Of a stretch of DNA of 20,088 nucleotides, positions 844-18,702 are shown one piece after another (positions within the stretch are counted from its first letter, which is position 1; each line of letters starts with the position of its first letter). The notes under the pieces are model-generated. The model searched no databases. It saw only the letters and a program-made list of their open reading frames with translations, and had not been told where the DNA came from. Location: positions 1 through 20,088 of IMG/VR virus record IMGVR_UViG_3300021139_001508, one strand, 5' to 3'. The position numbers and the translations under genes are program-made. The DNA is from a virus.

Positions 844-1528
844 TGTATATCTCCTTAAACACATCTGAAAATATATAGTAAGGCCATGTCATAGATAAGT
901 GTTTGGTAACTGTAATTTCAAAGAATTTCTTAAAATCGATGTGCCCATTATCGTCAGTAGAAGCATCAAATCTGTATGCACCGTGCTTGCCTATGACTCC
1001 CTCTATTACCTTTCTTTCTATAAACCGTTCTTCGAATGGAACTACGGAATAATAATCTATAGTTTTGAGTATTTGGTCTTTGTTAATATAAAAACAATGA
1101 GGATACAGAGCCATCTTCCAAAATTTGTTTTCTTTAGATACAATCAAAAAATCTCTAATCTGGTCTTGCCAATTAGGAAGTTCATTATCTAGGTTTCTGC
1201 CAGGAGTAAACAATACTTGCGATAATGTTTCTTTATTCCATTCTATAAAAATCTTTCTATTTTCCAAATCAATTTCGTAGACTTCTGGTGTAGTTTTCAA
1301 ATGAGATAATTGGTTAATGAATTTTACTTCTCTTTCAAAGAACCATTGTGTAAGTTCTTCACTGACCGTAGTATCCTCATCGGATCTATATATAGGATCA
1401 TTACAATAGTGCATACACATTACCGTTCTTTCATTGTTAACTGTGGGTGTATACAATAAATTTGAACTATGGGGAGTACCATTATTGTTTAATTTATAAT
1501 AGTAATCCCATCTGCTGGTATCTGTCAT
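836..1528 (-). CDS. Kinase/phosphotransferase-like protein (230 aa)
   Basis: I do not recognise a named family with certainty. The middle and C-terminal parts resemble a small, degenerate protein-kinase or aminoglycoside-phosphotransferase fold. There is a Glu-containing helix (FEREVKFINQL, from about residue 66), a hinge-like segment (YEIDLENRKIFIEW) and a catalytic-loop-like LYPHCFYINKDQ (about 141-152). A TIDYYSV segment (about 156-162) sits where a metal-binding Asp would lie. A classical glycine-rich loop is not obvious, so it could be a pseudokinase or a small-molecule kinase. The ATG at 1528 forms an ATGA overlap with the stop of the upstream radical SAM gene and has GGAAAG 4 bases before it. 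A longer form from the TTG at 1540 is less likely. The operon context suggests it acts on the same substrate as the oxygenases. Confidence 0.6.
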   Translation of the reverse strand: MTDTSRWDYYYKLNNNGTPHSSNLLYTPTVNNERTVMCMHYCNDPIYRSDEDTTVSEELTQWFFEREVKFINQLSHLKTTPEVYEIDLENRKIFIEWNKETLSQVLFTPGRNLDNELPNWQDQIRDFLIVSKENKFWKMALYPHCFYINKDQILKTIDYYSVVPFEERFIERKVIEGVIGKHGAYRFDASTDDNGHIDFKKFFEITVTKHLSMTWPYYIFSDVFKEIYND

Positions 1529-3069
1529 TGTGCTTTCCAATTTAATTTATTGTTGATATATGATTGCACTTGATCTTTAAACTTTTGATCAGCGGTGTCT
1601 ATATCAGAAATTTTATAGTCGTATATTTCTTCATACGAATTTGTTTCGTGATAGGCAAACAATCTATCAGATAAAAACGGATTGCATCCACGGAGACCGG
1701 CAAATCCATTATTGCTATAAAATTCTTGTACAAGTGATTCGGCTTGATACCAATCCATTGTATCATGTTTCCAGATAACAATATCATTTCTAGTACTGCC
1801 GACACCGCCGCCTCTAGGTGTAGTAGATTTAAATACAACATTGCCTTTGCTATCCTTGCTAACTTCATAGCCTGGATTCTGTCTAGCTTCTAACTTAATT
1901 AGGCCATTACTTACAAGCTCTTTGGTAAAGCGGCTTTGGTTAGTCAATGACTCATCGTAGTCCGGCACCTCTAGTATATGTGCGCTGGCGCTCTGTCTCA
2001 GCCAATTTGTGTTTAACCATTTGAGACTTTCATACCAAGACTCTTTAGTCTCTCCTGGTATCCCGCATATCATCTGTATATTAGCTCTATAGCGTTTAGG
2101 AGCATGAATGTCAGTATATGCTTGAAAGTCTAATAATCCTTGTTGTAATTTATCTGGGTCCATTCCTTTACGTACTAACTTGCCTGCTTCCTTGTTAAAT
2201 GTTTCAATGCCCATGCTATGTCCGAGGAATCCTAATCTAATATAAGTGTCCCAATGTTCTCTATGTTTAACGACTAAGTCGCCGCGAGCAAATCCGCATA
2301 TCCAAGGATTGTATCCTAACTCATCTACAGCTTCAGCATACTTCTGTAACTTCTCTGGACGATCATTAAATGTTTCGTCCATAACACGCCAGTTGACAAT
2401 GCCCCACTTTTCATAGCCTGTTTGCATTTGACGTTTAAATTCTTCTTTGCTCACACTAACATCTTTGCTCTGTCCCAGTAGAGGAAAGTTACAGTAAGAG
2501 CAACTAAACATACAACCACGTGCTGTTTCAATCTGTGGGCACTCCCAAGGCATCATAAAGTCACGAGCTTCGTAATCTACTAGGTAACTGTCTAATGGTG
2601 TACTAGGATAATGATGCAGTCCACGGATTACATTCTTAACTCCAAAGTATGTAGGATCACGCATTAAAGGTACGCCCAAGGTTCCTGTAAGATGACGGCA
2701 CAATGCTAAGACAGCATTTTCACCATAACTGTCGACCCAATAATCTACATGATTAGCAGGAGTAGTTAGTGCATTATTACCGCCAACCACAATAGCGACC
2801 TTAGGGTATTCTTCTTTAAGCCATTTGGTAAACTCATTAAGGTATGGACTCCAGGGATTCAAGAACGCTGTTCCAAAACAAAACATAACAGTCTTACTGG
2901 TTGTACGTGAACGCACAAACTCTTGTAGTTCTTCTAATTGCCAGAAGGCAGTAAAGTCTACAACTTCGCAGTCCCAGTCTTGTTGTCGTAAGAAGGTAGC
3001 CACGCGATGTGTCCATAGTATACGCTCCCAGCGTTTGCCTGTTAGGCTAAAGAACAACGCATGATTCAT
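1525..3069 (-). CDS. Radical SAM enzyme with B12-binding-like N-terminal domain (514 aa)
   Basis: Residues 1-130 look like a Rossmann domain of the cobalamin-binding type that precedes many radical SAM methyltransferases, with repeated beta-alpha units and VAIVVGGNN at about 91-99. I see no DxHxxG cobalamin-His motif, so base-off B12 binding by His is doubtful. The radical SAM core begins at RGCMFSCSYC, with Cys186, Cys190 and Cys193 forming the CxxxCxxC that holds the 4Fe-4S cluster. A VMDETFN motif about 40 residues later and MICGIPGET are typical of B12-type radical SAM barrels. Family members perform methylations, ring rearrangements or C-C chemistry. The start (ATG 3069) overlaps the upstream oxygenase stop as ATGA. 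It is unrelated at motif level to the other nine radical SAM proteins here and is the only large enzyme of the left operon. Confidence 0.88.
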   Translation of the reverse strand: MNHALFFSLTGKRWERILWTHRVATFLRQQDWDCEVVDFTAFWQLEELQEFVRSRTTSKTVMFCFGTAFLNPWSPYLNEFTKWLKEEYPKVAIVVGGNNALTTPANHVDYWVDSYGENAVLALCRHLTGTLGVPLMRDPTYFGVKNVIRGLHHYPSTPLDSYLVDYEARDFMMPWECPQIETARGCMFSCSYCNFPLLGQSKDVSVSKEEFKRQMQTGYEKWGIVNWRVMDETFNDRPEKLQKYAEAVDELGYNPWICGFARGDLVVKHREHWDTYIRLGFLGHSMGIETFNKEAGKLVRKGMDPDKLQQGLLDFQAYTDIHAPKRYRANIQMICGIPGETKESWYESLKWLNTNWLRQSASAHILEVPDYDESLTNQSRFTKELVSNGLIKLEARQNPGYEVSKDSKGNVVFKSTTPRGGGVGSTRNDIVIWKHDTMDWYQAESLVQEFYSNNGFAGLRGCNPFLSDRLFAYHETNSYEEIYDYKISDIDTADQKFKDQVQSYINNKLNWKAQ

Positions 3070-3725
3070 TCTATGTTAAATCCTTTTGGCAGATAGTTTT
3101 TTAGAACTTCTATAACGCTACGTGCTATTTTAAATCTTACGTGTTCCGGAGAATATTCAAAATCAGTTATATATCCATTTTTAGTTGCAACATTAAGCCA
3201 CGGACTTAAATGATAATCAAACATATACCTAGATTGTATTCCTAGATTAGATGTTACTGTAACTGTTACAGGATCTTCTACATTATTTCTTTTTAATAAT
3301 TTTCTAACTACTAATTGTACCCTATTAGTCTGTCCAAAATTTGTAGCGGTATGTAATAATCCGGCATTCATATCGTACCAAACACCATCGTGTTTTAAAA
3401 AATGCATTTGATTATTTTCCAAATCAATGATATAACTCTTATCGCCCGTAACATTTAAATGATATCTATCATCAATATCAGCATGAGCTTGATAGCATTG
3501 ACCGGGGTCTAAAGTTATAATCCTTGCTTCGCCTTTGCTTACAGGTAATGAATCATATAGAGTTTCCCAGATGGTTCCTTTATATTCATCGCTGATTGCC
3601 CAGGGATCATAGAAGAAATCACCAGTAGGTTGATTAATAGTATTCTTCATGCCTGTCTCGGGCAAATGAATGCAGGCTTCTTTTAGCAAATTTGTATCAA
3701 CCGAATAGGTAGTTGGAGTTAGCAT
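3066..3725 (-). CDS. Aspartyl/asparaginyl beta-hydroxylase-like oxygenase (219 aa)
   Basis: This is the first gene of the leftward operon. LDPGQCYQAHADIDDRYHLN carries the H-x-D pair (His81, Asp83), followed by LLHTATNFG with the distal His125 and by Arg135 in QTNRVQLVVR, where 2-oxoglutarate is normally held. This order, H-x-D ... H ... R, is the cupin-fold aspartyl/asparaginyl hydroxylase pattern. It differs from the oxygenase at 352-843, which lacks an equally clear Arg, so the two are unlikely to be recent duplicates. The ATG at 3725 has no Shine-Dalgarno sequence. A perfect TATAAATA sits only 5 bases before it, which would place transcription initiation at or next to the start codon. A later start (Met26) would leave the catalytic core intact and cannot be excluded. 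Its stop overlaps the next ATG by 4 bases. Confidence 0.75.
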   Translation of the reverse strand: MLTPTTYSVDTNLLKEACIHLPETGMKNTINQPTGDFFYDPWAISDEYKGTIWETLYDSLPVSKGEARIITLDPGQCYQAHADIDDRYHLNVTGDKSYIIDLENNQMHFLKHDGVWYDMNAGLLHTATNFGQTNRVQLVVRKLLKRNNVEDPVTVTVTSNLGIQSRYMFDYHLSPWLNVATKNGYITDFEYSPEHVRFKIARSVIEVLKNYLPKGFNIE

Positions 3726-3767
3726 AGAAATATTTATATGCTACTATAATAGGATTAAATATTTACA
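3726..3767. promoter_or_regulatory. Divergent promoter region with late-promoter-like octamers
   Basis: These 42 bases separate two divergent operons. On the minus strand there is an exact TATAAATA (3738 to 3731), the T4 late-promoter consensus, 5 bases from the oxygenase ATG. On the plus strand ATTAAATA (3754-3761, 6 of 8 matches) is 6 bases from the aminotransferase ATG. Both elements share the 9-mer TAAATATTT, oriented away from each other. A sigma70-like TATAAT (3745-3750) also points right, but no convincing -35 box is present. Neither ATG has a clear Shine-Dalgarno sequence. In T4 the octamer spans about -13 to -6, which would make both messages leaderless or nearly so. The promoter role is inferred from the motif and its position. 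Confidence 0.55.
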
Positions 3768-4625
3768 ATGCGTTATAAGATTGCCCCTACCTACTCAGAA
3801 GACTATCTAGAAATAGATCGTCCACAGCCTCTTGTTGATAATCATATTGAAAATTTAATACAGGATGTGTTAAATGGTAAAATAGGTAAAGATATCAGCG
3901 ATACTGTATATAATGATCTAAAGAAAGAAATGACCAGCTGGTTATTTCAAAGTACCTTTAATAAGCTGTCCGGGTTTGACAATTTTGATCGTGTAGACAT
4001 TATTAATGGCTGTACCCAGTTTATAGACAGCATCTACATGAAGGGTCCTGTACAAATACTAAAGGGCGATTATAGATATCACAGCAGATTAAATCCGGAC
4101 ATGGCTTTTAGTGTTCCTGGATATTTACGTAAAGATTTACCATTAATCATTGCTATGCCATTTCCTAGTACAGGAGACACGCATTCACAGATGAAGGAGA
4201 TATTAGATGAAGCGCAAGACAAAGGAATTAGTGTACATGTGGACGGTGCTTGGCTTACTTGCTGCCGCGGAATTGACTTTGATCTATCACATCCATCTAT
4301 TAAGTCAGTCGCTATCAGTCTGAGCAAGGGATTAGGACTAGGATGGAATCGTATAGGGCTGAGATGGACTAGACAACCCACTCCAGATAGTGTTACAATA
4401 ATGAATGATTTCAATATGAATCTTCGTGCGCCTGCAATGATTGGATTATATTTTATTCGTAATTTACCAATAGACTACTTATGGAGTACATATAGCAACC
4501 AATATTATAAAATCTGCAAAGATTTTAATCTTGTTCCCACCAAGAGCATATACCTTGCATTACGTAACGGTATTCCTGTAGGTGTTAGTCCTTTAATAAG
4601 GTATTTAGAAAATGCAAATAGATGA
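3768..4625 (+). CDS. Fold-type I PLP-dependent aminotransferase-like protein (285 aa)
   Basis: This is a compact relative of class I/II aminotransferases. Visible landmarks in order are INGCTQFIDSIY (about 79-90, corresponding to the TxGxxxA cofactor-phosphate turn), MPFPSTGDTH (about 130-139, corresponding to the NPTG loop), VHVDGAW with Asp159 (pyridine nitrogen ligand) and SLSKGLGLGWNRIGLRW with Lys187 as the Schiff-base lysine and Arg195. At 285 residues it is about 100 shorter than typical enzymes, mainly because the C-terminal small domain is reduced. The carboxylate-binding Arg of that domain is not obvious, so the substrate may not be a standard alpha-amino acid. It is the first gene of the rightward operon, starts right after the divergent promoter region, and overlaps the PP-loop gene by 14 bases. 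It likely installs or removes an amino group in the pathway. Confidence 0.75.
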   Translation: MRYKIAPTYSEDYLEIDRPQPLVDNHIENLIQDVLNGKIGKDISDTVYNDLKKEMTSWLFQSTFNKLSGFDNFDRVDIINGCTQFIDSIYMKGPVQILKGDYRYHSRLNPDMAFSVPGYLRKDLPLIIAMPFPSTGDTHSQMKEILDEAQDKGISVHVDGAWLTCCRGIDFDLSHPSIKSVAISLSKGLGLGWNRIGLRWTRQPTPDSVTIMNDFNMNLRAPAMIGLYFIRNLPIDYLWSTYSNQYYKICKDFNLVPTKSIYLALRNGIPVGVSPLIRYLENANR

Positions 4626-5334
4626 TTTAGACATTCCGTTTAACGGACAGTGGAAAAATATAGCAATAAGTGTGAGCGGAGGTGCTGACTCTGCTTTGTT
4701 GGCTTATATACTCTCTGAACAAGCACAACGATACAATATAAATGTTCACATTATTAATCATATTCGTATGTGGAAAACTAAACCTTGGCAAAAGTACGAT
4801 GCTGAACAAGTTTATGATTATCTGCAAAAGAAATTTAGTAAGGTAAAGTTTATTTTTCATAGAAACTTTATCGCACCAGATATTGAATACGGAAACATTG
4901 GTCCTAGCATTAAAGACGAGTACAATAAACTTGTTAGCGGAGATAATATTCAACAGCGGTCCTACGCAGAATATATATGCCACCTCTTTGATGTAGATGC
5001 TTACTATAATGCAGTAACAAGAAATCCTAGAGAAGTAGATTTAGGAGGTATGAAAGAACGAGATATTGAATTAGACAATACTAATGCACATTTGCAAATT
5101 ATGACACACATGGGCAGACTTGCTTGCCATCCCTTTCGTTTTGTAGAAAAAAGTTGGGTACTGCGTCAGTATAGACAACTAGAAATAATGGATCTATTCA
5201 ATATTACTAGAAGTTGTGAAGGAGAGTTTCCTGGATTGGATTATACTACATATAAGGCCGGAGATGCTGTGCCAGAATGCGGAAACTGTTTTTGGTGCAA
5301 GGAACGAGATTGGGCAGTAAAATGGCGAGGTTGA
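4612..5334 (+). CDS. QueC-like PP-loop ATPase (240 aa)
   Basis: The N-terminus carries the ATP-pyrophosphatase PP-loop SVSGGADSALLAY (about 20-32). Such enzymes adenylate a carbonyl or carboxylate and then pass ammonia or sulfur to it. The C-terminus has a Cys tail, SCEG...ECGNCFWCKER, that matches the zinc-binding C...CGxCxxCxxR of QueC (7-cyano-7-deazaguanine synthase). No other preQ0 genes (FolE, QueD, QueE) are visible here, and the middle region (RSYAEYICHLF, NPREVDLGG) does not look like a standard QueC to me. I therefore call it a QueC-like amidating or nitrile-forming enzyme rather than queC. Related PP-loop proteins also act as sugar amidotransferases in surface glycan loci. It overlaps the aminotransferase-like gene by 14 bases and the SGNH gene by 13, so the three are probably co-translated. 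Confidence 0.78.
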   Translation: MQIDDLDIPFNGQWKNIAISVSGGADSALLAYILSEQAQRYNINVHIINHIRMWKTKPWQKYDAEQVYDYLQKKFSKVKFIFHRNFIAPDIEYGNIGPSIKDEYNKLVSGDNIQQRSYAEYICHLFDVDAYYNAVTRNPREVDLGGMKERDIELDNTNAHLQIMTHMGRLACHPFRFVEKSWVLRQYRQLEIMDLFNITRSCEGEFPGLDYTTYKAGDAVPECGNCFWCKERDWAVKWRG

Positions 5335-5981
5335 TAGCATTTGGTGATAGCTTTACGTATGGACATGGCTTAGAAGATTGCCATGTACCTGCACCAAAAA
5401 TTTTAATAGGTCGTAAAGAAAAAGACTTGCCTGGACCTAATCCTAGTATTTTTGCGTGGCCTCAAATTCTAGGAAATCTATTAGGATTAACAGTTGTTAA
5501 TAAGGCCGTTCCAGGAAACAGTAATCTACAGATACTTAGAGATATCTTAAAATTTGAAAGTTTTGAATCCTCGGATCTAGTAATCGTAGGATGGACTTTT
5601 AAAGAACGAGATACTATATTCAATAAAAATATATTAGGTCAAGAATCAGAAACTCGTATAAGTCCATGGCATAAAAGTACAAAATTGATTAGTCAACATC
5701 TTAATGTTCATAACGGATATGATATGTCTGTTAGGATGGGATTACACATACATCATGCGGAGTGCTATTTAAAAACGAAAGTAACAGAACAACTGCATTT
5801 TTGTGCATTTCATCACGCTTGGTACAATGATCTTGCTGTGTTTATCAAAGAGCCAGATTATTTTATCAGCGATCCTATATTGATACATACAGATAAAGCC
5901 TTAGATGGAAGTCATCCCGGACCTGTGACACACATAAAAGGTGCTAGAAAATTATATGACATCCTTACAGCAACAGAGTAA
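5322..5981 (+). CDS. SGNH/GDSL hydrolase-like protein (219 aa)
   Basis: Block I is IAFGDSFTYGHG with Ser10 as nucleophile. Block II is NKAVPGNSN, whose Gly65 supplies an oxyanion contact. The last block is DGSHPGPVTHIKGA with Asp195 and His198 completing the triad. Block III, normally GxND, reads VIVGWTF here, so the usual oxyanion Asn is absent. That may alter activity or favour acyl transfer. There is no signal peptide, so action is expected inside the cell, perhaps deacylating or acylating a biosynthetic intermediate. The ATG at 5322 is preferred because the GDSL block normally lies at the N-terminus, although the frame is open to an ATG at 5277. It overlaps the PP-loop gene by 13 bases and the next radical SAM gene by 26. 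Confidence 0.8.
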   Translation: MARLIAFGDSFTYGHGLEDCHVPAPKILIGRKEKDLPGPNPSIFAWPQILGNLLGLTVVNKAVPGNSNLQILRDILKFESFESSDLVIVGWTFKERDTIFNKNILGQESETRISPWHKSTKLISQHLNVHNGYDMSVRMGLHIHHAECYLKTKVTEQLHFCAFHHAWYNDLAVFIKEPDYFISDPILIHTDKALDGSHPGPVTHIKGARKLYDILTATE

Positions 5982-7230
5982 AACATTTTGTATGCATCCT
6001 TTTACAGGACTTGCAACTAGAGAAGACGGCGCAATCTGCGTATGTTGCAGAAGCCATCCTGTCGGCTTTATACAAGATGCTACACTGGAAGATATTTGGA
6101 ATAACGATACTATAAAACGTATTCGCAAGCAAGTACTTAATAACGAACGTCCCGCAGAATGTCAGCCTTGTTTTAGTCTAGAGGATCAAGGAGTTGAAAG
6201 TCTACGACAACGACACATAGCAGGCAAGATACCTGAAGCTCGTATTAATCTATATCCTAATGCAGTAGACAAACTGAACGAAGATTATAGCATGCCATTT
6301 GAGATTCCAAGCATCGAGCTTAAATTAAACAATCTATGCAATCTTAAATGCCGTATGTGCCATCCTATGGATAGTACTGCATGGAACGATTGGAGTGAAG
6401 TTAAAGAGTTCTATAAGAAAGAAAGCAACATCATGTATGCTATTATAGAAGAACATAACTTAGAAAACAAACCACACTTGGACAAGTTCCAAGATAGTCC
6501 AGAATGGTGGGCAAGTTTAGAAAAGCTATTGCCCTACTTTAGGCGAGTAGAGTTTGCGGGCGGAGAACCATTAATGGATCCACAGCATTATCGAATATTA
6601 GACATGTTAAAACCTTATGGTGCTAACATTGAATTAAAGTATGCCACTAACGGCACTACATTAGGTATTAGTAAAGGAAGAACAGTACATGAATATTGGC
6701 CAAATTTTAGAAGCGTTGCCGTTAACGTCAGCCTTGACGGCATTGGTAATGTTTACAACTACATTCGCAGTAACAGCGATTGGAAAGAAGTTGTTGCTCA
6801 CATCAAAGAGATAAAAACAATTCCAAACGTTAGTAGAGTTGTAGGAGCAGTTGCAGTACAAGTCAGTAACATTTTGATATTAGATAAAATGATAGAACAT
6901 TTTCTAAATGATTTAGAAATAGTCTTTCATGCACACATTGTAAAGTATCCAAATGTTCTATCAGTGCAGGTGTTACCAAAAGAACTAAAGATGGATGCTA
7001 TTATAAAACTTGCCGCAGTATATCATAGAGTCAGCGAGTTTGCATTAGTTAAAAAACATCCTGTATTGTTAGAACTAACACAGAATCATATTCTAGGAAT
7101 TTTAAACTATCTAAAAGCAGAAGATCAAAGCGACAAATGGAAAGACTGCGTAGAATTTAACACTCGATTAGATAAAACACGTAATCAAAGTTTTGTTGAT
7201 GTAACCCCGGAGTTTAACGGGTATGCGTAA
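5956..7230 (+). CDS. Radical SAM enzyme, N-terminal twitch type, family A (424 aa)
   Basis: The radical SAM core starts at LNNLCNLKCRMC with Cys128, Cys132 and Cys135, and AGGEPLMD (GGEP about 202-205) binds the SAM amino group. Before the core lies a Cys-rich region with Cys12, Cys28, Cys30, Cys31, Cys69 and Cys72 (FCMHPF, ICVCCRSHP, ECQPCF). It ends in LEDIWNNDTIKRIRKQVL, the sequence style of a SPASM/twitch auxiliary-cluster domain. In most SPASM enzymes this part follows the barrel, so this is the permuted, N-terminal twitch arrangement. The C-terminal segment (KTRNQSFVDVTPEF) is the family-A tail in degenerate form. A GTG at 5941 is an alternative start. It overlaps the next gene by 8 bases (ATGCGTAA). 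The substrate is unknown; SPASM/twitch relatives modify peptides, proteins or sugars. Confidence 0.87.
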   Translation: MTSLQQQSKTFCMHPFTGLATREDGAICVCCRSHPVGFIQDATLEDIWNNDTIKRIRKQVLNNERPAECQPCFSLEDQGVESLRQRHIAGKIPEARINLYPNAVDKLNEDYSMPFEIPSIELKLNNLCNLKCRMCHPMDSTAWNDWSEVKEFYKKESNIMYAIIEEHNLENKPHLDKFQDSPEWWASLEKLLPYFRRVEFAGGEPLMDPQHYRILDMLKPYGANIELKYATNGTTLGISKGRTVHEYWPNFRSVAVNVSLDGIGNVYNYIRSNSDWKEVVAHIKEIKTIPNVSRVVGAVAVQVSNILILDKMIEHFLNDLEIVFHAHIVKYPNVLSVQVLPKELKMDAIIKLAAVYHRVSEFALVKKHPVLLELTQNHILGILNYLKAEDQSDKWKDCVEFNTRLDKTRNQSFVDVTPEFNGYA

Positions 7231-8158
7231 CAATATTAAAGACATGTTTTATAACACAGTCGGTAATAATACTGCTAGAATTGTAGTTGATACAGACAAC
7301 GGTCCTATATCGTTGTACTACCATTTGAATGATAACCCTGTACAGCACATATGGCAAGAAATACACAAAGACTCTAGTAAGTTTACTATGGGAGTTATAC
7401 ATGGCAAAAGCGTAGAACAATTAGTTGAAGAAATCAACGAAGTACTTCAAAGAACAAACAGATCTACATTAACGCTACCTATATCACAAGATCAATTAAA
7501 CAAATTACACAACAGTTTTGTAGAACAATCTAAAATAAAACCAACTAAAGACGAACTAAAAATTAACTCGTTAATACATGCTATTGAATCTAAAAATAAT
7601 ATTCTATCTGATTATGATGTTACTGTTAAGTTCTACAAGGATCCCGATAATGTTAGAATCCCTATCAAAGAAGAATACAAACTTTGGTTAGTAAACGATT
7701 ACAAATGGGGTCATTTAAGATTAGGTTATTGCACTCTAGGTAAAGCATGGTGCGACATTGTTAATAGCAACGACAACATAGATGATTTAAATTATCAAAC
7801 TAACATCAGTTCAGAAACCCTTATGGTGTTTAATGCAGATTATCCGTTTTTGAAAACATCCGAAAAGCGTTTATACGACTGGGCAAAGAATTCTGGCTAT
7901 AATGTGCCATTAGATAATTTAAACGAACTATCGTTAGGAGAATACCTGCTAGGAGAGATTATTATTACTGATACATTTTTAAATTTTCATCCTATAATTA
8001 GCGATTGGTATGTGCCAAATCACTATTGCAAACTGGCATGGAATAAAGAAGTATTAGGGTATAATGCAACTGTTAAACAGATTAATTTTTTCAATAGCGA
8101 CATGTGCTTTGACACATTAAACAAACATGCAGGACTAGAATCATTATGTTTAAAGTAA
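7223..8158 (+). CDS. Uncharacterised protein between two radical SAM genes (311 aa)
   Basis: I do not recognise this protein. It has no signal peptide, no clear membrane segment, no cysteine cluster and no P-loop. The N-terminal half (about 1-130) is rich in Asn, Lys and Glu and includes helical stretches (SVEQLVEEINEVL, DQLNKLHNSFVEQSK). The C-terminal half is aromatic-rich, with YKLWLVNDYKWGHLRLGYC and TLGKAWCDIVNSNDN, and ends with a conserved-looking DWYVPNHYCKLAWNKEVLGY. The ATG at 7223 overlaps the upstream stop by 8 bases, and the end overlaps the next radical SAM gene by 13, so it is coupled to both. It could be a partner or substrate-binding protein of the flanking enzymes, much as the glycosyltransferase-like gene sits between families A and C at 16146. 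That role is inferred only from position. Confidence 0.7.
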   Translation: MRNNIKDMFYNTVGNNTARIVVDTDNGPISLYYHLNDNPVQHIWQEIHKDSSKFTMGVIHGKSVEQLVEEINEVLQRTNRSTLTLPISQDQLNKLHNSFVEQSKIKPTKDELKINSLIHAIESKNNILSDYDVTVKFYKDPDNVRIPIKEEYKLWLVNDYKWGHLRLGYCTLGKAWCDIVNSNDNIDDLNYQTNISSETLMVFNADYPFLKTSEKRLYDWAKNSGYNVPLDNLNELSLGEYLLGEIIITDTFLNFHPIISDWYVPNHYCKLAWNKEVLGYNATVKQINFFNSDMCFDTLNKHAGLESLCLK

Positions 8159-11468: not shown

Positions 11469-12555
11469 TGGTCATTTTACTCATTGTTATTTTTTTCTGT
11501 TCAGATATACTTATAAAAGGTTTACTGTCACTACACATTATTATGCAAGTTGAACTAGACTTATCTTTCCATTTCTGTTGCCACATTGTTTGCCACTGTT
11601 CAGTTTCGATAATGTTTCTTAGCCCGGACTCTAATACATTTAATCTTGGAAAGCCTAATACTTGCTCGCGCACTTTTGCACCTTCCTCTACAACAGAGTC
11701 TTCTTGAAATAGATCATATGACTTTAATAAATCAACATCATAGTTTGTGTACAAGAATGCTCCAATCATGCAACAAGGACTTAGCTGATAATGCGCATCG
11801 ATATACAGTTCCTTATCTTTAATTGACATACAATTTATTCTATCTGCATGTGGCCAATCTCGATGTCCTTGTACATCAGACTTGCTTACAAATTTAATAG
11901 TGCTGTCTGAAGGCTGTTCAAGATTGTATAAAAATGTGCCTTGATTATCAACAACAGGAAAGGGTCTAGCATGACGTCTGCTGTCTCTTACTTGAAAGTT
12001 TTTAAAATTTAATGTTTTAGATATTTCTTCAGCGGCACTAACTTGATGTTCATTGTGTTTAAATCTAATAAACATCCATTCAGCAATACCTCCTGCATCA
12101 ATGAATGTTTTAGCATTTTTTAAAATTAAGTTGTAGTTAGTGCCAACTCGATAAAGACTATGAGTATCTTCCAATCCGTCAAGGGCAAACACTACTATAT
12201 GATCACTAGGCAATGCACTGTATAGCTTTTTCCACCAATCAGTTGATCTTAAACTACCGTTGGTATGTATCTCTACTTTGATGTTAGGAGCGTTAATTTT
12301 AATGTATTCACACATCTTAATAAGGTCGTTGTTCATTAACGGATCGCCAAAGTTTCCACAGAAGTTAATTATTTCAAGTTGCTCCAAAACATCTAATGGA
12401 AATATCTTTACAAAATCATCTATTGTCCATTCGTTAATGGATAGTAAAGGATTGTCGATTCCGCCATGTATGTTTCTAGGACACATAGGACAGGATGCCT
12501 GGCATCTATTGCTAATTTCTAAGTGAACCCTATTAAGTTCATTAAAGTTAAACAT
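11461..12555 (-). CDS. Radical SAM/SPASM-like enzyme, family B, intact Cys set (364 aa)
   Basis: The protein opens directly with the barrel: HLEISNRCQASCPMC (Cys18, Cys22, Cys25) and RNIHGGIDNP. Where other radical SAM proteins have GGEP, this one has CGNFGDPLMN (about 66-75). The C-terminal part contains Cys242, a YIDAHYQLSPCCMIG segment with Cys261-Cys262, and Cys337/Cys341 near the end, enough for an auxiliary cluster. A strong AAAGGA lies 5 bases before the ATG at 12555, and the start overlaps the upstream paralogue by 8 bases (ATGTTTAA). It lies next to its paralogue at 12548 and one gene away from the third at 14215. The C-terminal tail after Cys341 (EQKKITMSKMTNE) is not shared with the paralogues. 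Confidence 0.86.
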   Translation of the reverse strand: MFNFNELNRVHLEISNRCQASCPMCPRNIHGGIDNPLLSINEWTIDDFVKIFPLDVLEQLEIINFCGNFGDPLMNNDLIKMCEYIKINAPNIKVEIHTNGSLRSTDWWKKLYSALPSDHIVVFALDGLEDTHSLYRVGTNYNLILKNAKTFIDAGGIAEWMFIRFKHNEHQVSAAEEISKTLNFKNFQVRDSRRHARPFPVVDNQGTFLYNLEQPSDSTIKFVSKSDVQGHRDWPHADRINCMSIKDKELYIDAHYQLSPCCMIGAFLYTNYDVDLLKSYDLFQEDSVVEEGAKVREQVLGFPRLNVLESGLRNIIETEQWQTMWQQKWKDKSSSTCIIMCSDSKPFISISEQKKITMSKMTNE

Positions 12556-13639
12556 TGAATTCCTTTAAATCTAATAATTCTTGTTGTGGCTGGCTGATCT
12601 TATTTTCTGCAAACTTTCCACAAACTCTAACACACATCAATATAGATTTATTTTCAAAGCTCGCATTCCAAACAGTTTGCCATTCCTTGCTATCAACTAT
12701 TTCTTCTATACTTTTATTTTCTAAATCTAATCCTTCTGGCCCGCCAAATTCTTTAATAGTAGATATTAACGAACTGATACTATCATTTACAAAATCATAA
12801 ACTAGGTCATCAGGCGGTGAATATTGATAAAGAACACTACCAATGAAGAATGAAGGCCATAAACGACCTTGTGCATCTATATAGATACGTTTTTCTCTTT
12901 CGGCTTCGCAACTAATTATTGCTGTATCAAATAACGACTTGTAGTTTTTTATTGTATCTTTATCAATAAATTCAATTTTTGATTCTACAGGAGTTGACAA
13001 CTTGTAAATTTCAGTACCTGTTTTATCGAGCACTTTAAATTCATTTGATCCAACAAATCGTGTAGTTTGTTTTTCTTGGAATCTTACAAATCCTAGCTCT
13101 TCTGCCAATTCTCTGCATTCGTCTAACTGATGCTGATTATGTTGAAACGTAATAAAATTCCATTGTGCTTTGCCACCGTTATCAATAAATGTTTTAGCGT
13201 TACGTATAATAGTGTTAAAGTCTGTTCCTATTCGATATAGACTATGTGTGTCTGCAAGCCCGTCTATTCCAAAAAACACTAAATGATTCCTTGGGAGTGC
13301 ATTAGCAAGTTCAGTCCACCACTTAATCGATCTAGCACTTCCGTTTGTATATATGTATATAGTAATATCTGGATTCTGCTCTACCGCATATCTAACCATA
13401 TCTATCAAATCATTATTCATTATTGGATCGCCATAGTTTCCAGACATTGTTATAGTTTTTAATTGCTTTAAAAAATTAGAAGTAAGTGCTGTTTTGAAAA
13501 AATCTAAACGCAGGTTTTTTTCAGGTAATTTAGGATTAGGTAAGCCGCCGTGGTAGTTTCTAGCACACATAGGACATGATGCCTGACATAGAGAAGATAT
13601 CTCCATGTGCAAATGTTCAATTTCTTTAAATTTATACAC
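12548..13639 (-). CDS. Radical SAM enzyme, family B, lacking the CC ligand pair (363 aa)
   Basis: The barrel motif HMEISSLCQASCPMC (Cys18, Cys22, Cys25) and the GGEP replacement SGNYGDPIMNND (about 66-77) match its neighbours. The segment where the paralogues have PCC reads YIDAQGRLWPSFFIG, so two probable auxiliary-cluster ligands are Ser263 and Phe264. Cys244 and the C-terminal Cys336/Cys340 (LMCVRVCGKF) remain. The protein may therefore hold a different cluster, none, or work with a partner. The start codon is GTG (13639), overlapping the methyltransferase stop as GTGTATAA, with only a weak TAGG upstream, which suggests translational coupling. Apart from the loss, length and overall sequence track the 11461 gene closely, including THSLYR and NAKTFID. 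Confidence 0.85.
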   Translation of the reverse strand: MYKFKEIEHLHMEISSLCQASCPMCARNYHGGLPNPKLPEKNLRLDFFKTALTSNFLKQLKTITMSGNYGDPIMNNDLIDMVRYAVEQNPDITIYIYTNGSARSIKWWTELANALPRNHLVFFGIDGLADTHSLYRIGTDFNTIIRNAKTFIDNGGKAQWNFITFQHNQHQLDECRELAEELGFVRFQEKQTTRFVGSNEFKVLDKTGTEIYKLSTPVESKIEFIDKDTIKNYKSLFDTAIISCEAEREKRIYIDAQGRLWPSFFIGSVLYQYSPPDDLVYDFVNDSISSLISTIKEFGGPEGLDLENKSIEEIVDSKEWQTVWNASFENKSILMCVRVCGKFAENKISQPQQELLDLKEFNV

Positions 13640-14225
13640 GGCCTATAATCATCCATCTAGTATATAACGGCAATTCTAATTTACCTGCCCATAAGACATT
13701 GACACCGCATTGTGTCTTAAATTCTTCTAGGTCTTTGGCTGTTCTAATATGTTCAGGTATATCATAATTATTACTTTGTAACACAAGTAAACTATCTTTA
13801 GGAGCATAATTTAACCAACTATCGTACTGTGCCTGTGTAAGATGTTCACAGCTTGTATTAATAATTATATCAGCACTCATATGCATAGGCTGACTTATAT
13901 CTACTACGCTGGCACGGAATCTACCCTGCATCTCCTCTATTTTATTCATAGATTCTGCAATAGGTTTACAAGTAGGATCAATGTCATAGCTGGCGATATG
14001 CGTAATTGGTATATTGCTTTGGAACAACATACTGGCTAATACTCCTACCCAACCTGCACATATTTCTATGCTAGATGCTGAGTGTACATGCTCGTCTAGA
14101 TTATCAATTAGCCATTCTTTGCTTTTAAGTTGTCCGGACCAAAAGGCATCCATAGTCCTTATAGGATCTGGACTTTGTCGTATGGCCTGCATCCAATGAT
14201 GCAAGTGTTCTGTATCAATGTTCAA
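13632..14225 (-). CDS. Class I SAM-dependent methyltransferase-like protein (197 aa)
   Basis: A Rossmann-type SAM site is visible: SSIEICAGWVGVLASMLF (about 51-68) is motif I with an acidic residue and Gly-x-x-Gly, ASYDIDPTCKPIAESMN (about 78-94) is motif II with the ribose-binding Asp, and ADIIINTSCEHL (about 118-129) is motif IV. The N-terminal 50 residues form a helical cap (HHWMQAIRQSPDPIRTMDAF). The protein is short, lacking an extra substrate domain, so a small-molecule or shallow substrate is plausible. I choose TTG at 14225 because TAGGAG lies 6 bases before it, although an in-frame ATG (Met12) exists. It overlaps the upstream family-B gene by 11 bases. It lies between two family-B radical SAM genes and probably methylates a product or intermediate of theirs. 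Confidence 0.8.
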   Translation of the reverse strand: MNIDTEHLHHWMQAIRQSPDPIRTMDAFWSGQLKSKEWLIDNLDEHVHSASSIEICAGWVGVLASMLFQSNIPITHIASYDIDPTCKPIAESMNKIEEMQGRFRASVVDISQPMHMSADIIINTSCEHLTQAQYDSWLNYAPKDSLLVLQSNNYDIPEHIRTAKDLEEFKTQCGVNVLWAGKLELPLYTRWMIIGRV

Positions 14226-15201
14226 ACTGTGCTCCTAGTTTATCAAACTTACCACATTGCTTTGAGCATTCTTTAATTCCACATGTCGTCCAGCTTTGTT
14301 CTATTTGATTAAAATATCCGCTGTTGAATATTTCATTTAGAGTTTGTGTGTTAAGATTTGGCCAGTATCCTATTGTATCAAGATACTGTATTCTTGAATC
14401 CTGTGTAGGAGGCATTGGTCGTAAGTCTATCCAGCAACATGGAGTTACTGTTCCATCTGCACTTATATACAGTTGACTATCTCGTTGTGCTTTGCAATTG
14501 ATAGTTGGCAGTATGTCTTGTTCAGCTGTTGCTACCTTACTAATCATGTGATTACTTTTAGTTGTAGGATACAGTATATACTGTGTTTTTCCTTTTTCAT
14601 CTAACACATTGAACTTGCCGTCTTTAAAACGACTTGTGTGTTTAACATAAAAATCTTTAAATCCTAGCTCTTGGCTAAGAGTTCTGCAAGCATCTATCTG
14701 ATGTTCGTTATGTTGGAAAGCTAACATATCCCAACGAGCATCTCCGCCGGCATTTATAAATGCTTTGGCATTATTAATAATCTTATTCCAATCAGTGTCA
14801 ACTCTATATAGATGATGGGTATCTTCCAAACCATCAATGCCAAATACTATTTTTACTCTTAATTTAGCTAGGGATTCAAACCACTCAGTTGTTCTTGCAC
14901 TACCGTTAGTGTGCATTATTAACGACATAGTATCGTTATTATCTCTTAGGTATTGATATATTTCTAGTGTATCTTTAGCAACAATAGGATCACCAAGATT
15001 GCCACACATGCTAAGATGATTTAACTGTTGTACAAAGTCAGCAGAGAACCAATTGGTAAATTGCTCTGTGGTTATTTCGTTTAAATTGATAAAAGGATTT
15101 AGTACTCCTCCGTTAATCCTGCGAGGACACATAGGACATCTAGCTTGACACTTAGATGTAACCTCGAGATGTATTGCACGTATGTCGCTAAGATTATACA
15201 T
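14215..15201 (-). CDS. Radical SAM/SPASM-like enzyme, family B (328 aa)
   Basis: The barrel starts with HLEVTSKCQARCPMC (Cys18, Cys22, Cys25) and RRINGGVLNP. The GGEP position reads CGNLGDPIVAKD (about 66-77). The auxiliary region keeps Cys236 (INCKAQ), the pair Cys255-Cys256 in YISADGTVTPCCWID, and a C-terminal Cys307, Cys312, Cys316 (TTCGIKECSKQCGKF), the fullest Cys set in family B and the closest to a standard SPASM domain. The start at ATG 15201 (MYNLSDI) is chosen rather than an upstream codon at 15231, because it aligns with the paralogues and gives the 8-base overlap ATGTATAA with the family-C gene. No Shine-Dalgarno sequence is present. It is the shortest of the three paralogues because the segment before the last Cys group is reduced. 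Confidence 0.86.
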   Translation of the reverse strand: MYNLSDIRAIHLEVTSKCQARCPMCPRRINGGVLNPFINLNEITTEQFTNWFSADFVQQLNHLSMCGNLGDPIVAKDTLEIYQYLRDNNDTMSLIMHTNGSARTTEWFESLAKLRVKIVFGIDGLEDTHHLYRVDTDWNKIINNAKAFINAGGDARWDMLAFQHNEHQIDACRTLSQELGFKDFYVKHTSRFKDGKFNVLDEKGKTQYILYPTTKSNHMISKVATAEQDILPTINCKAQRDSQLYISADGTVTPCCWIDLRPMPPTQDSRIQYLDTIGYWPNLNTQTLNEIFNSGYFNQIEQSWTTCGIKECSKQCGKFDKLGAQFEH

Positions 15202-16153
15202 TTTTAATTTTAGGTATTTTACTATCCGCACTACTGACGCATCTATCAGTTATGCATATCTTAGGAGCAGGAAACAAGGTAAAATTATCTATAGTACCTA
15301 AGACTTCTTCCTTACAGCTATATGCTCTTTTAACCTCAGCACCTTTTATTATAACACTTTGGTACCCTGCATTGCAAGTCCAATTGGTAAAACTATTAAA
15401 TCCTAGTGCGTTAAATCGCTCTGCTTGATCTATAAAATAGTCTTGTGTGCCATCTGTAAGTCTAATCTGATATCCTTCTTGTTGTTCAAAATCTTCTTGC
15501 ATGATCTTGATCATGTCAGGAGTGTACCCATCTACAATAGCTGTTGCACTTGTATTGCTTTGTGGTTTAAGAGTTACGTTAATTCCGCGACTGCGTAAAC
15601 GATTACAACGTTCTAAGGTATCGTAAAACACATCAGGGACCATAACTTGATTAACTGTTACATGAACACGCTCATACATCAGCTGTAGACATTTGTCTCC
15701 AAACTCTTGTTCTTTAGCATGTTCTGCATGGAAGCTGGCTGTGATACTTCTACGCTGTAATGAACCTGTGTAGTCACACCAGATCTTCCACCATTTAGAT
15801 CCAGGTGACAAATTAGTTGTCATGTGTACGCTTTGATAAGAACTAACAGTTTCATCTAAATGTTTAATTATATCAGGCAGTTGTTTATATGCTGTAGGCT
15901 CTCCTCCGCTAAATGACCAATGAAATTGTGTAAACCCATTTGCACGAGCCTGTCTTTTGATTTCATCTATAGCATTGATATAAACTTCTAGAGGTTGATA
16001 GTCTAGTTGATCTGTCCTAGCATATGGCCAGCAATAGCTACATTTATAATTACAGAAACGTCCTAATATCCAACTAACATTGAATAAGGGACGATCCAAC
16101 ATAGTCTGTTGACCAAATCGGGTTATCTTATCAAATGGTATTAGGTTATACAT
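15194..16153 (-). CDS. Radical SAM enzyme with partial SPASM-like cluster, family C (319 aa)
   Basis: The core is GRFCNYKCSYC (Cys34, Cys38, Cys41) with FSGGEPTAY (GGEP about 83-86). The C-terminal SPASM-like region repeats the family plan: NWTCNAGYQSVIIKGAEVK, YSCKEEVLGTI and ICITDRCVSSADSKIPK. Relative to the 8146 and 9022 genes, the CxC near the end has become CVS, and the usual DG turn is KGAE, so at least one cluster ligand is lost. HMTTNLSPGSKWWK (about 119-132) replaces the TNGS motif of the others. It starts at ATG 16153 with an 8-base overlap (ATGTATAA) and ends with the same 8-base overlap into the family-B gene. No Shine-Dalgarno sequence is visible. It follows the family-A gene at 17356 with one gene between. 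Confidence 0.85.
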   Translation of the reverse strand: MYNLIPFDKITRFGQQTMLDRPLFNVSWILGRFCNYKCSYCWPYARTDQLDYQPLEVYINAIDEIKRQARANGFTQFHWSFSGGEPTAYKQLPDIIKHLDETVSSYQSVHMTTNLSPGSKWWKIWCDYTGSLQRRSITASFHAEHAKEQEFGDKCLQLMYERVHVTVNQVMVPDVFYDTLERCNRLRSRGINVTLKPQSNTSATAIVDGYTPDMIKIMQEDFEQQEGYQIRLTDGTQDYFIDQAERFNALGFNSFTNWTCNAGYQSVIIKGAEVKRAYSCKEEVLGTIDNFTLFPAPKICITDRCVSSADSKIPKIKNV

Positions 16154-17396
16154 TAAAATATTCTCTGTAATAGGCTGTTAGTTCGTTGAATACAGCTATC
16201 TGATTGTTGTTTGAATTATGAAATACATTATAGTTATGTTCCAGTATATCTCGCATTCCTTCAAACCACGACAGCTTATCTTCTATAGCATCTATTCTCT
16301 TTAACTCGTTGATTATAGCATCTATTCTCTCAAAAGTCGATAGTGTATCATATGATTCATTGATAAAACCATCAAAGGTTTTATAGCCCATATCTCGCAT
16401 AGCCTGTAGACTACCGGCACTACCTAATATGATAAAAGGATGCATACAGGCAATGGGCTTAAAGGTCTTTTCACTTATGAATAGTGCATTGTCACTGTCT
16501 GCAAATATAGGCTCGCTTATTACAGTTACCCATGTATCTTTGTACACTTGATCTACAATCCTGTCTATGTAATAACCGTCATCAAATTGGACATTTGATT
16601 TGCCATAAACTTCTAAAGGTAGCACGGTCCTTGCTTCCTGCAGGAGTAGATTGTCAGTAGCACGGCCATCTAAATTGTTTACATGTGTACCATAGTCATT
16701 CATACTAACCAGTCCTGAATCTAATAGGCCGGCTTTATATAACTCTCCATAAAACCATATGCGATGTGTTCTTAAACGTTTCTGTAAACAATTAAAAGTC
16801 TTGATCTCATTAACCTGTTTATAAGCAATATTGTCTGCCCAATTAGAACAAATACCGTGTTTGTCTGCGATAAACTTAACATAGGATTCAAAATGTGTAT
16901 AGGCTATAGTTTTGATCTTGTGTGCCTTATCCTGTGCCCATTGTGCATAATCTCTTTGTGTATTCCAATTGCCTGTAACATATACTACCGCTTCTGGAGG
17001 AATATTATATTTGCTACAACTATCATGGAACCATTGCCAAAGATACGCAGTATGGTATCCTTCTAGGCATTGATCTAATAACAACATAGCGTTACCTTCT
17101 TGTAGGTCTTTGAGATACGTTGGACTGAGCCAACTAAAGAGATCTACTCGACCTCTAGGTGTAGTCCAATTATCTGGATGGTGTCTTACTCCGGAAGCAA
17201 TTATATAAGGGTATTCTCCTTTGTTAGGAGTTATATCATAAGTCTGTAACATCTTACCTGCGACTACAGATGGATGACAACGACTAAGTCCTGACGGATT
17301 AACATCAGGGCATGCTATAAAGTTTTCAAAGGTAGTTGTATCTTCAAATGTAAAGTTAGGCAGAAACTTTGGCGCAGTTGTGATAGAACTCTGCAA
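16146..17396 (-). CDS. Uncharacterised protein with glycosyltransferase-like C-terminal motif (about 416 aa)
   Basis: I do not recognise a named family. The C-terminal half contains VTVISEPIFADSDNALFISE, then KTFKPIACMHPFIILGSAGS and MGYKTFDGFINESYD. This E-K-x-x-K-P-I ... HPFI pattern resembles the donor-side motif of GT-B glycosyltransferases such as the fucosyltransferase group. The N-terminal half has an alpha/beta character (YPYIIASGVRHHPDNW, AVVYVTGNWNTQRDY). The start is unclear: the frame runs 143 bases into the upstream gene. TTG at 17396 is reported, CTG at 17363 would restore the 8-base overlap seen at the other junctions, and the first ATG is at 17252. No start has a good ribosome site. 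A 30-base tandem duplication lies near the C-terminus. The context suggests it glycosylates the pathway product. Confidence 0.65.
   Translation of the reverse strand: MQSSITTAPKFLPNFTFEDTTTFENFIACPDVNPSGLSRCHPSVVAGKMLQTYDITPNKGEYPYIIASGVRHHPDNWTTPRGRVDLFSWLSPTYLKDLQEGNAMLLLDQCLEGYHTAYLWQWFHDSCSKYNIPPEAVVYVTGNWNTQRDYAQWAQDKAHKIKTIAYTHFESYVKFIADKHGICSNWADNIAYKQVNEIKTFNCLQKRLRTHRIWFYGELYKAGLLDSGLVSMNDYGTHVNNLDGRATDNLLLQEARTVLPLEVYGKSNVQFDDGYYIDRIVDQVYKDTWVTVISEPIFADSDNALFISEKTFKPIACMHPFIILGSAGSLQAMRDMGYKTFDGFINESYDTLSTFERIDAIINELKRIDAIEDKLSWFEGMRDILEHNYNVFHNSNNNQIAVFNELTAYYREYFNV
16284..16330. repeat. 17-base direct repeat from an in-frame 30-base duplication
   Basis: TATAGCATCTATTCTCT occurs at 16284-16300 and again at 16314-16330, a period of 30 bases. 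On the coding (minus) strand it encodes two copies of a RIDAI decad (ERIDAIINEL then KRIDAIEDKL) in a helical stretch of the glycosyltransferase-like protein. It looks like a small in-frame tandem duplication that has partly diverged outside the 17-base core. Confidence 0.8.
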
Positions 17397-18702
17397 GTTC
17401 TGGAAAGGTATTTTCAAAAGACGTATTGCGTCTTCTATCATACTCAGTGAACCATTTATAAAAATCTGCACGACCTTCATCAATTTTGTTTTGGTCATAA
17501 TTTGTATTTCTCATATATTCAACAACACGACTAAACTTTTCGCATTCAAGTGTTGAAAATTTATTCCGACGCATATACTCTAAGGAGATTTCCATATAGG
17601 GCATGAACTGTTCTTTTGGCAATAGATTCATATCATATTGCAAGGGTTCTTTTAGATAAGGTGTGTCAAATCTAATGCGCTGTTTGCGGCTAAACCAACC
17701 GTTGTATTTCTTACGCCACTGTTTAATCTTAACCAATAAAGAACTAAAGTTAGTCACAGTTAATATGTTAAATGTACACATGAATGTGATAGGCTGTTTT
17801 GTTTTGGTTAGATATGTATCTAAGTTCTTTTCCCATACTGTTAGATCTAAACCTGTACGTATGTATTCGGCAGGAGCTCCCCAAGTGTCTATGCTGGTAA
17901 ACAATTTAAAATGTTTGATCTTGTTTTCATTTAACAGGGCATTTACTTTTGTTACCAAGCGTTCCATCATTACAGGCTTGATACCCAAATTGCTGTTAAT
18001 GTTAAGCTCAAGATTAGGTTTAGGGTTAATATATAAATCATCTAGTAATCTCCATGTTGATTGTTGTAGTAAGGGCTCTCCTCCTGTAATGCGGAGAATG
18101 TTTAGGGTCTTTGAAACTTCAGGCCACCAAGCCCACCATGCATCAACATAGGGATTAGTTTCTTCTTCGTATAAATGTAGATAGTCTATATCGTTACGAT
18201 GATTCTTTACCATTGTGTAAGGACCAAAGTCTTTTATTTCTTTGTAGTAAGCAGAGCTGTGCTTTGGATGGCAATATCCACATTTGAAATTACATTCATT
18301 GCCAAAGCTGATCTCAATGTATTCTGGGTTTACAGGAGCTAGAGGATCCTTAACAATAGCTCCTAGACGTTCTGGGATATAGATGCTGGCATTGCGTTCA
18401 TGTCTATCGCTTACATGATCACCTGGCAAGTCTTCTATGTTCCAGCAATACTGACACCCATTAGGTCTTTTACCATCTACCATCATTTGGCGTTCTTGTC
18501 TTTTACCGGGTGTGTTGTGCAATACGCTAGGATCCTGGGCTAGGAGATCTAAGGGGATGGCATGTGGACGTGGATGATAACAACTGTGTGTCTGCCCACT
18601 TTGCAGATAGATAGTAGTATGATGCCATTTGGCTAAACAGAACGTGGGGCTAACTTCGTTGACTATAGGAATGATTTTTTGTATTCTGCTAATTTCGTTC
18701 AA
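17356..18702 (-). CDS. Radical SAM enzyme, N-terminal twitch type, family A, operon leader (448 aa)
   Basis: This is the first gene of the long leftward operon. The N-terminal Cys region has Cys22 (FCLAKWHHTTIYLQSGQTHS), Cys41 (CYHPRPH) and Cys83/Cys86 (GCQYCWNIED), four ligands and therefore probably one auxiliary cluster. The other family-A proteins carry one or two additional Cys. The core is GNECNFKCGYC (Cys137, Cys141, Cys144), with ITGGEPLLQ (GGEP 207-210). FTSIDTWGAPAEYIRTGLDL corresponds to the family's conserved post-barrel strand. The C-terminus has the family tail (DRRRNTSFENTFPELAEF). The start is a TTG, supported by AGGGG 6 bases before it and by a stop codon four codons upstream in the same frame. 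That ribosome site is inside the 3' arm of a strong hairpin (18707-18743), so translation may be controlled by RNA folding. Confidence 0.85.
   Translation of the reverse strand: MNEISRIQKIIPIVNEVSPTFCLAKWHHTTIYLQSGQTHSCYHPRPHAIPLDLLAQDPSVLHNTPGKRQERQMMVDGKRPNGCQYCWNIEDLPGDHVSDRHERNASIYIPERLGAIVKDPLAPVNPEYIEISFGNECNFKCGYCHPKHSSAYYKEIKDFGPYTMVKNHRNDIDYLHLYEEETNPYVDAWWAWWPEVSKTLNILRITGGEPLLQQSTWRLLDDLYINPKPNLELNINSNLGIKPVMMERLVTKVNALLNENKIKHFKLFTSIDTWGAPAEYIRTGLDLTVWEKNLDTYLTKTKQPITFMCTFNILTVTNFSSLLVKIKQWRKKYNGWFSRKQRIRFDTPYLKEPLQYDMNLLPKEQFMPYMEISLEYMRRNKFSTLECEKFSRVVEYMRNTNYDQNKIDEGRADFYKWFTEYDRRRNTSFENTFPELAEFYHNCAKVSA

Follow-up and report, generated by a model that had tools for sequence, protein, structure and literature searches.

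The window analysed here is the whole of IMGVR_UViG_3300021139_001508, a linear IMG/VR virus record of 20,088 bases, and our subject is the closely packed set of genes within it, in which ten open reading frames (ORFs) for radical S-adenosylmethionine (radical SAM) enzymes lie between positions 1525 and 18702. Genes are named below by the lower coordinate of their ORF. Adjacent genes overlap by 4-58 nt, with a single pair overlapping by 143 nt, and the gaps between genes amount to just 42 nt and 432 nt. The radical SAM ORFs are as follows.

1525-3069, minus strand: B12-binding radical SAM enzyme (PF04055 51.7 bits; PF02310 20.8 bits)
5956-7230, plus strand: radical SAM enzyme with N-terminal twitch domain (NF033640, 331 bits)
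8146-9042, plus strand: radical SAM enzyme with STM4011/viperin-like core and C-terminal Cys motif (domain and family profile matches)
9022-10059, minus strand: radical SAM enzyme with viperin/QueE-like core and C-terminal Cys motif (domain and family profile matches)
10056-11468, minus strand: radical SAM enzyme with N-terminal twitch domain (NF033640, 410.6 bits)
11461-12555, minus strand: radical SAM enzyme, paralogue of 12548 and 14215 (PF04055)
12548-13639, minus strand: radical SAM enzyme, paralogue of 11461 and 14215 (PF04055)
14215-15231, minus strand: radical SAM enzyme with SPASM domain (PF04055 35.1 bits; PF13186 29.1 bits)
15194-16153, minus strand: radical SAM enzyme with Bdellovibrionota relatives at 43-48% identity (PF04055)
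17356-18702, minus strand: radical SAM enzyme with N-terminal twitch domain (NF033640, 305 bits)

An earlier sequence-only reading had picked out these ten genes from their visible CxxxCxxC cores, and all ten stand. Nine pass the Pfam cut-off for PF04055; the other, 17356, scores 22.9 bits against a cut-off of 29.5, yet reaches 305.4 bits with the NCBIfam model NF033640 (cut-off 170). Each protein has exactly one CxxxCxxC, against an expectation of 0.07 for the ten together when residues are shuffled, and by the presence of this motif in the radical SAM core all ten are assigned to the superfamily. They fall into four subfamilies: the three N-terminal-twitch proteins, which alone score above 170 bits with NF033640 (5956 at 331, 10056 at 410.6 and 17356 at 305.4, the remaining seven below); the paralogues 11461, 12548 and 14215, which are 35-41% identical; 8146, 9022 and 15194, with an STM4011/viperin/MoaA-like core; and the B12-binding 1525. 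The last of these is the most conserved gene of the island, with a median identity of 88%. At least 550 viral relatives of 5956 were found, and 9022 was traced to 44 viral loci. A pattern scan and tblastn for the 5956 family found no cellular relative in 84,980 cellular genomes.

Viperin, PhpK and QueE were considered as identities for single radical SAM enzymes and set aside, the matches being partial and far under the cut-offs. The top score for prokaryotic viperin (NF038283, cut-off 180 bits) was 56.4 bits, from 9022, and the best NCBIfam match of 1525, the PhpK P-methyltransferase model TIGR04479, gave 61.8 bits against a cut-off of 600. PDB sequence searches with 1525 and 14215 returned no informative neighbour. 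Elsewhere, contig G001 has two more island radical SAM genes (L099:17785-18855 and L100:3485-4534), both with the HMPTM N-terminal zinc-ribbon domain PF23545.

The same genes recur together in many viral contigs. Scans of IMG/VR with single island proteins and with an alignment of 5956 gave 176 viral loci on some 137 different contigs, most of which are fragments; the island recurs in about 130 retrieved IMG/VR contigs. Three or more window genes are present at 40% identity or above in 165 of the 172 matching loci, and eight or more in 128. Radical SAM genes were counted in 30 contigs: 29 have 4-15 each, and one contig, reached by a distant match, has a single such gene. Gene order is strongly conserved, and relatives of 5956, 13632, 8146, 3066, 836 and 10056 are each found in 58-61 of the 68 long loci. 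Compared with their closest relatives, the island genes show ratios of non-synonymous to synonymous change (dN/dS) of about 0.03-0.16, values that are approximate because dS is often near saturation; changes are mostly synonymous, and by this measure the genes are under purifying selection.

Two island-bearing contigs, G019 (80 kb) and G031 (353 kb, IMGVR_UViG_3300020045_006153), also encode a T4-type gp23 capsid protein, which marks these two genomes as T4-type jumbo myoviruses; the window itself is without gp23 and is linked to them by synteny. The G019 gp23 shares 68-71% identity with its counterparts in CBB/BF-like jumbo phages, and G031 is similar to these phages in size. On G031 the island lies at about 4-28 kb, and SleB-like and 16146 relatives sit at its edge, as they do in the window. 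On related contigs the island is flanked by tail-fibre and baseplate-wedge proteins, with very large tail proteins encoded alongside. When four contigs were compared, a relative of at least 40% identity in another contig existed for 94 of 157 island genes, against 20 of 150 flanking genes, a contrast somewhat overstated because the four were picked for sharing the island. The best explanation is that the window represents most of an accessory island of 20-40 kb located near the tail-fibre genes of T4-type jumbo myoviruses, and the phages that carry it are apparently a common group.

The viral status of the window, which the sequence-only reading had regarded as apparent, is supported by its IMG/VR label and by synteny with contigs bearing phage genes. 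It is very hard to believe that the contig is instead cellular, a piece of bacterial chromosome misfiled as viral: related clusters do lie on Bdellovibrionota chromosomes, but the closest relative of each gene is viral (60-92% identity, compared with no more than 48% for secure cellular contigs). With gp23 present on two island-bearing contigs, a cellular origin was rejected.

Those chromosomal relatives are nevertheless informative. In a genome scan with an alignment of 10056, the closest secure cellular relatives belong to Bdellovibrionota and are 43-48% identical. A 58% match lies on L195, a 3,537-base contig of a Thermoplasmata metagenome-assembled genome; as it falls inside the phage clade, this contig is probably a misbinned phage fragment. 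Several of the Bdellovibrionota contigs are clearly chromosomal, reaching 936 kb, and on L213 the 10056 relative follows an apparent pheT. Next to the chromosomal 10056 relatives we see relatives of 15194, 14215/12548, 13632 and 3768, accompanied by GT2 glycosyltransferases (PF00535), a QueC-like gene and a small family with a DxD-like motif. Genome G045 has a second island (L292/L293) in which relatives of 17356, 8146, 5956 and 3768 occur together with PF05118 hydroxylases, and L288 has a compact cluster of 15194, 3768, 3066, 14215 and 13632 relatives (L288:3745-9388). No close relative of the B12-binding 1525 was seen in the fetched Bdellovibrionota stretches. Across 144 genomes of the class, a 10056 orthologue occurs in 12 and a 13632 relative in 29, the latter in 11 of the 12 genomes with 10056 compared to 18 of the 132 without it (Fisher p 4e-8). 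Where 13632 relatives occur without 10056 (L286, L287, L289 and L290) they have little context, with GT2 genes nearby in some.

Phylogenetic trees point the same way. The phage 10056 sequences form a clade whose sister is a Bdellovibrionota clade (100/98), inside a Bdellovibrionota-rich group; the phage 5956 clade groups with Bdellovibrionota (97/90), and the phage 17356 clade does so weakly (91/62). From tree placement and homology, the simplest reading is that the genes were probably acquired from that lineage, and this in turn suggests that the same lineage may provide the host. With much of the pathway having a chromosomal counterpart, the chemistry is not restricted to phages.

Some further features of these clusters were observed. 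Small proteins with Tat-like signal sequences lie near chromosomal radical SAM clusters (L205:930-1337, L209:19623-20051 and L206:8185-8658); two of them look mutually homologous and could be substrates. Reading by eye of the small secreted or Tat-signal proteins close to Bdellovibrionota clusters found no motif shared by all clusters. A family of small proteins with a VDGDN/VDADN motif, glycosyltransferase-like by eye and without a Pfam match, adjoins the cluster in nine Bdellovibrionota loci and is found in phage islands too (L207:9159-9851, L107:336-1905 and L276, at about 23-27 kb of G031). Near one cluster, L199:12138-14063 encodes a GT2-type protein with long C-terminal repeats of the form IYWLPGKxxR. 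Beyond Bdellovibrionota, a cellular cluster on a 335-kb Neomarinimicrobiota contig (L244) combines two 17356 relatives with relatives of 16146, of 13632 and of the SGNH hydrolase.

The radical SAM genes of the window are interspersed with, and flanked by, the following other genes.

3-365, plus strand: possible SGNH hydrolase, C-terminal fragment leaving the window edge (DNxHxxxxSH block read by eye)
352-864, minus strand: HxD...H iron/2-oxoglutarate-oxygenase-like protein, 170 aa (H95, D97 and H152 invariant in the alignment)
836-1540, minus strand: protein-kinase-fold protein, pseudokinase-like (AlphaFold2 predicted local distance difference test (pLDDT) score 92.6; Foldseek E 4e-6; VIA Z 14.3 to kinases)
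3066-3725, minus strand: aspartyl/asparaginyl beta-hydroxylase-like oxygenase (PF05118 17.3 bits, under cut-off)
3768-4625, plus strand: pyridoxal phosphate (PLP)-dependent aminotransferase-like enzyme (conserved D159 and SLSK187G, PLP Asp and Lys retained)
4612-5334, plus strand: QueC/TilS-like N-type ATP pyrophosphatase with CxxCxxC motif (phrog_1550 E 2.5e-5; PF01171 E 8e-4; TIGR02432 E 2.8e-6)
5277-5981, plus strand: SGNH/GDSL hydrolase-like protein (PF13472 E 2e-5, below cut-off)
7223-8158, plus strand: accessory protein present in few islands, no function assigned
13632-14225, minus strand: methyltransferase-like protein, a motif-level call (motifs read by eye)
16146-17498, minus strand: GT-B-fold glycosyltransferase (AlphaFold2 pLDDT 86; Foldseek and VIA glycosyltransferase matches, Z up to 12.2)
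19135-19845, minus strand: SleB-type cell-wall hydrolase at the island edge (phrog_938 E 7e-18; TIGR02869 53 bits)

The sequence-only reading had named most of these functions. The QueC/TilS-like character of 4612, the PLP residues of 3768, the GT-B fold of 16146 and the H-x-D...H of 352 are borne out; the oxygenase and SGNH calls for 3066 and 5277 are weak or below cut-off, and the methyltransferase call for 13632 amounts to motifs read by eye. Neither a Pfam match nor a meaningful PDB profile match was obtained for 13632, whose relatives occur in 61 of the 68 long loci. Similarly, 352 lacks a Pfam match and matched no PDB profile convincingly, and its assignment is at motif level; its relatives are found in 54 of the 68. 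For 3066, a chromosomal Bdellovibrionota relative on L288, 32% identical to the G001 orthologue, scores 25.9 bits on PF05118 (cut-off 22.6), and related islands contain Asp_Arg_Hydrox genes above the family cut-off. The aminotransferase-like 3768 aligns with Bdellovibrionota relatives at 32-35% identity, one of which reaches PF00155 with an E of 0.002, below cut-off. The alignment of 836 has no recognisable catalytic beta-3 Lys or HRD Asp, and with its kinase fold the protein is probably a pseudokinase; all four long contigs also encode a second, related family (G001_76) at a later point of the island. The 143-nt overlap (17356-17498) is that between the ORFs of 16146 and 17356; as the 16146 model loses quality ahead of about residue 40, translation of this gene probably starts downstream, around codon 40-45. 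At the margins, relatives of 3-365 occur in 24 of the 68 long loci at about 52% median identity, and those of 19135 likewise border the island in G003 and G031.

The QueC-like gene raises the question of whether the product of the island is a hypermodified DNA base guarding the phage genome, for instance a 7-deazaguanine derivative. QueD-like (PTPS) genes do occur in six of 12 related contigs, but where placed they are outside the island (on G031, QueD is at 163 kb and the island at 4-28 kb), the QueC-like gene is absent from many islands, and relatives on bacterial chromosomes adjoin GT2 genes. No TGT-family (PF01702) gene was found in the 12 contigs, which are mostly fragments and in which a divergent DpdA could escape detection. 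On balance we consider this explanation quite improbable. The QueD-like genes themselves (G002:19717-20238, G032:62942-63475 and four other contigs) suggest a separate 7-deazaguanine or pterin pathway.

The mixture of radical SAM, PLP, oxygenase, QueC-like and methyltransferase-like proteins also resembles natural-product clusters, and a small-molecule cofactor or secondary metabolite serving infection, such as an inhibitor of competitors or host enzymes, can be envisaged. PhpK being the top NCBIfam match of the B12-binding enzyme would fit such a product, but its score is one tenth of the cut-off, and neither an exporter nor an assembly-line gene could be recognised among the genes of the window. 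We regard a metabolite as unlikely.

Overall, our best explanation takes the island to encode a multi-enzyme tailoring pathway, related to chromosomal clusters of the Bdellovibrionota type and probably acquired from them. The sequence-only reading had proposed a multistep biosynthetic pathway; a conserved multigene island under purifying selection agrees with this, and the pathway is presumably multistep. Our preferred explanation, held tentatively and at somewhat less than even confidence, is that the phages have borrowed a pathway for tailoring envelope glycoconjugates and use it to remodel the surface of the infected cell or the virion. The radical SAM set and the aminotransferase-like, beta-hydroxylase-like and methyltransferase-like enzymes would build or modify a group containing an amino acid or amino sugar, which the QueC-like enzyme might amidate. 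The GT-B glycosyltransferase would then attach the group to an envelope glycoconjugate of the infected cell or to tail fibres, where the SGNH hydrolase could trim it, and the outcome would be altered receptors, giving superinfection exclusion, or a disguised virion. The more specific version, in which T4-type jumbo phages carry a compact, host-derived, multi-enzyme radical SAM pathway of Bdellovibrionota type and use it to add a chemical group not seen before to envelope glycoconjugates or virion proteins, is possible but put forward with greater reserve. The model builds on the gene families, their conservation and purifying selection, the T4-type viral setting and homology to glycosyltransferase-containing chromosomal clusters; from these we infer its substrate, product, step order, host and purpose. 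A glycosyltransferase, as expected of a surface-glycoconjugate cluster, is present in the predicted GT-B fold of 16146 and in the GT2 genes of the chromosomal counterparts.

Several observations weigh against this explanation. No sugar-nucleotide synthesis genes were seen within the window, and an aminotransferase and hydroxylases of these types suggest amino-acid or protein substrates no less than sugars. The comparison of island with flanking genes is a small one. Moreover, the nearest gp23 sequences come from phages of Vibrio, Sinorhizobium, Xanthomonas and enterobacteria, which does not fix a host, and host assignment through gp23 relatives proved uninformative.

Peptides and proteins are the typical substrates of SPASM/twitch radical SAM enzymes and of Asp/Asn hydroxylases. 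The island could accordingly modify protein side chains, most likely those of the long tail or tail-fibre proteins encoded next to it, in a form of virion maturation akin to that of ribosomally synthesised and post-translationally modified peptides (RiPPs), with the glycosyltransferase adding a protein-linked sugar. The very large tail proteins beside the island and the Asp_Arg_Hydrox genes that exceed the cut-off in related islands are in keeping with this, but the chromosomal clusters showed no phage tail genes and the packed part of the window has no space for a small precursor gene. Apart from the 432-nt gap, the window offers no intergenic room for a RiPP precursor, although a larger substrate protein encoded elsewhere is possible. 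We see protein modification as a serious contender, if on the unlikely side.

Islands of this general kind have been met before. Campylobacter phages CP220 and CPt10 encode 11-12 radical SAM proteins, termed 'highly unusual' in 2010 and given no function; these are in clusters of five, with nucleotide-diphosphosugar-transferase-like genes close by (PMC2853527). Relatives of 11461 are found there at about 25% identity, but searches with 10056, 5956, 9022 and 3768 gave no match in CP220, and the two phages differ in host, in gene order and in having a putative glycine amidinotransferase of their own. An amidinotransferase-like gene on L293, seen by eye as a possible link to CP220, has no Pfam match and was dropped. 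Pelagimyophages have radical SAM cassettes within host-recognition clusters, again without a function (PMC7029224). In the Pelagibacter phage Mosig EXVC030M, an island by the tail-fibre genes likewise combines radical SAM enzymes, aminotransferases, Asp_Arg_Hydrox and TauD oxygenases, and methyltransferases; it has fewer radical SAM genes (three genes annotated as molybdenum-cofactor enzymes), just about 25% identity, and additional nitroreductases and a carbamoyltransferase. The pelagimyophage island lies between VrlC and gp14, neither of which was identified beside the flanking tail-fibre and baseplate-wedge genes of our island.

The NF033640-rich clusters of Bdellovibrionota (L196-L207, L288 and L292/L293) share relatives of 10056, 15194, 14215/12548, 13632, 3768, 5956, 8146, 17356 and the hydroxylase, but there the genes are split among separate chromosomal clusters, are mostly 30-48% identical and are accompanied by GT2 glycosyltransferases. 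The CBB/BF-like isolates, for all their similarity in gp23, yielded no close relatives of 10056, 5956, 9022 and 3768. The literature searched contained no paper on a radical SAM island in Bdellovibrio-group bacteria or jumbo phages, although papers beyond it may exist. The claim that no characterised phage pathway has this composition thus holds for the searchable papers, but the CP220 and pelagimyophage reports make the radical SAM-rich phage island a kind already known, and unexplained. Within those papers, what appears to be new is the island core, the jumbo phages carrying it and its counterpart in Bdellovibrionota.

For a phage to spend 20-40 kb on some ten radical enzymes that form a single conserved set, the product must be beneficial. 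As the same type of chemistry is present in chromosomes of the Bdellovibrio group, solving one side would explain the other, and the Bdellovibrionota link supplies a testable host hypothesis for these jumbo phages. The answer would also bear on the unexplained radical SAM islands of Campylobacter and SAR11 phages.

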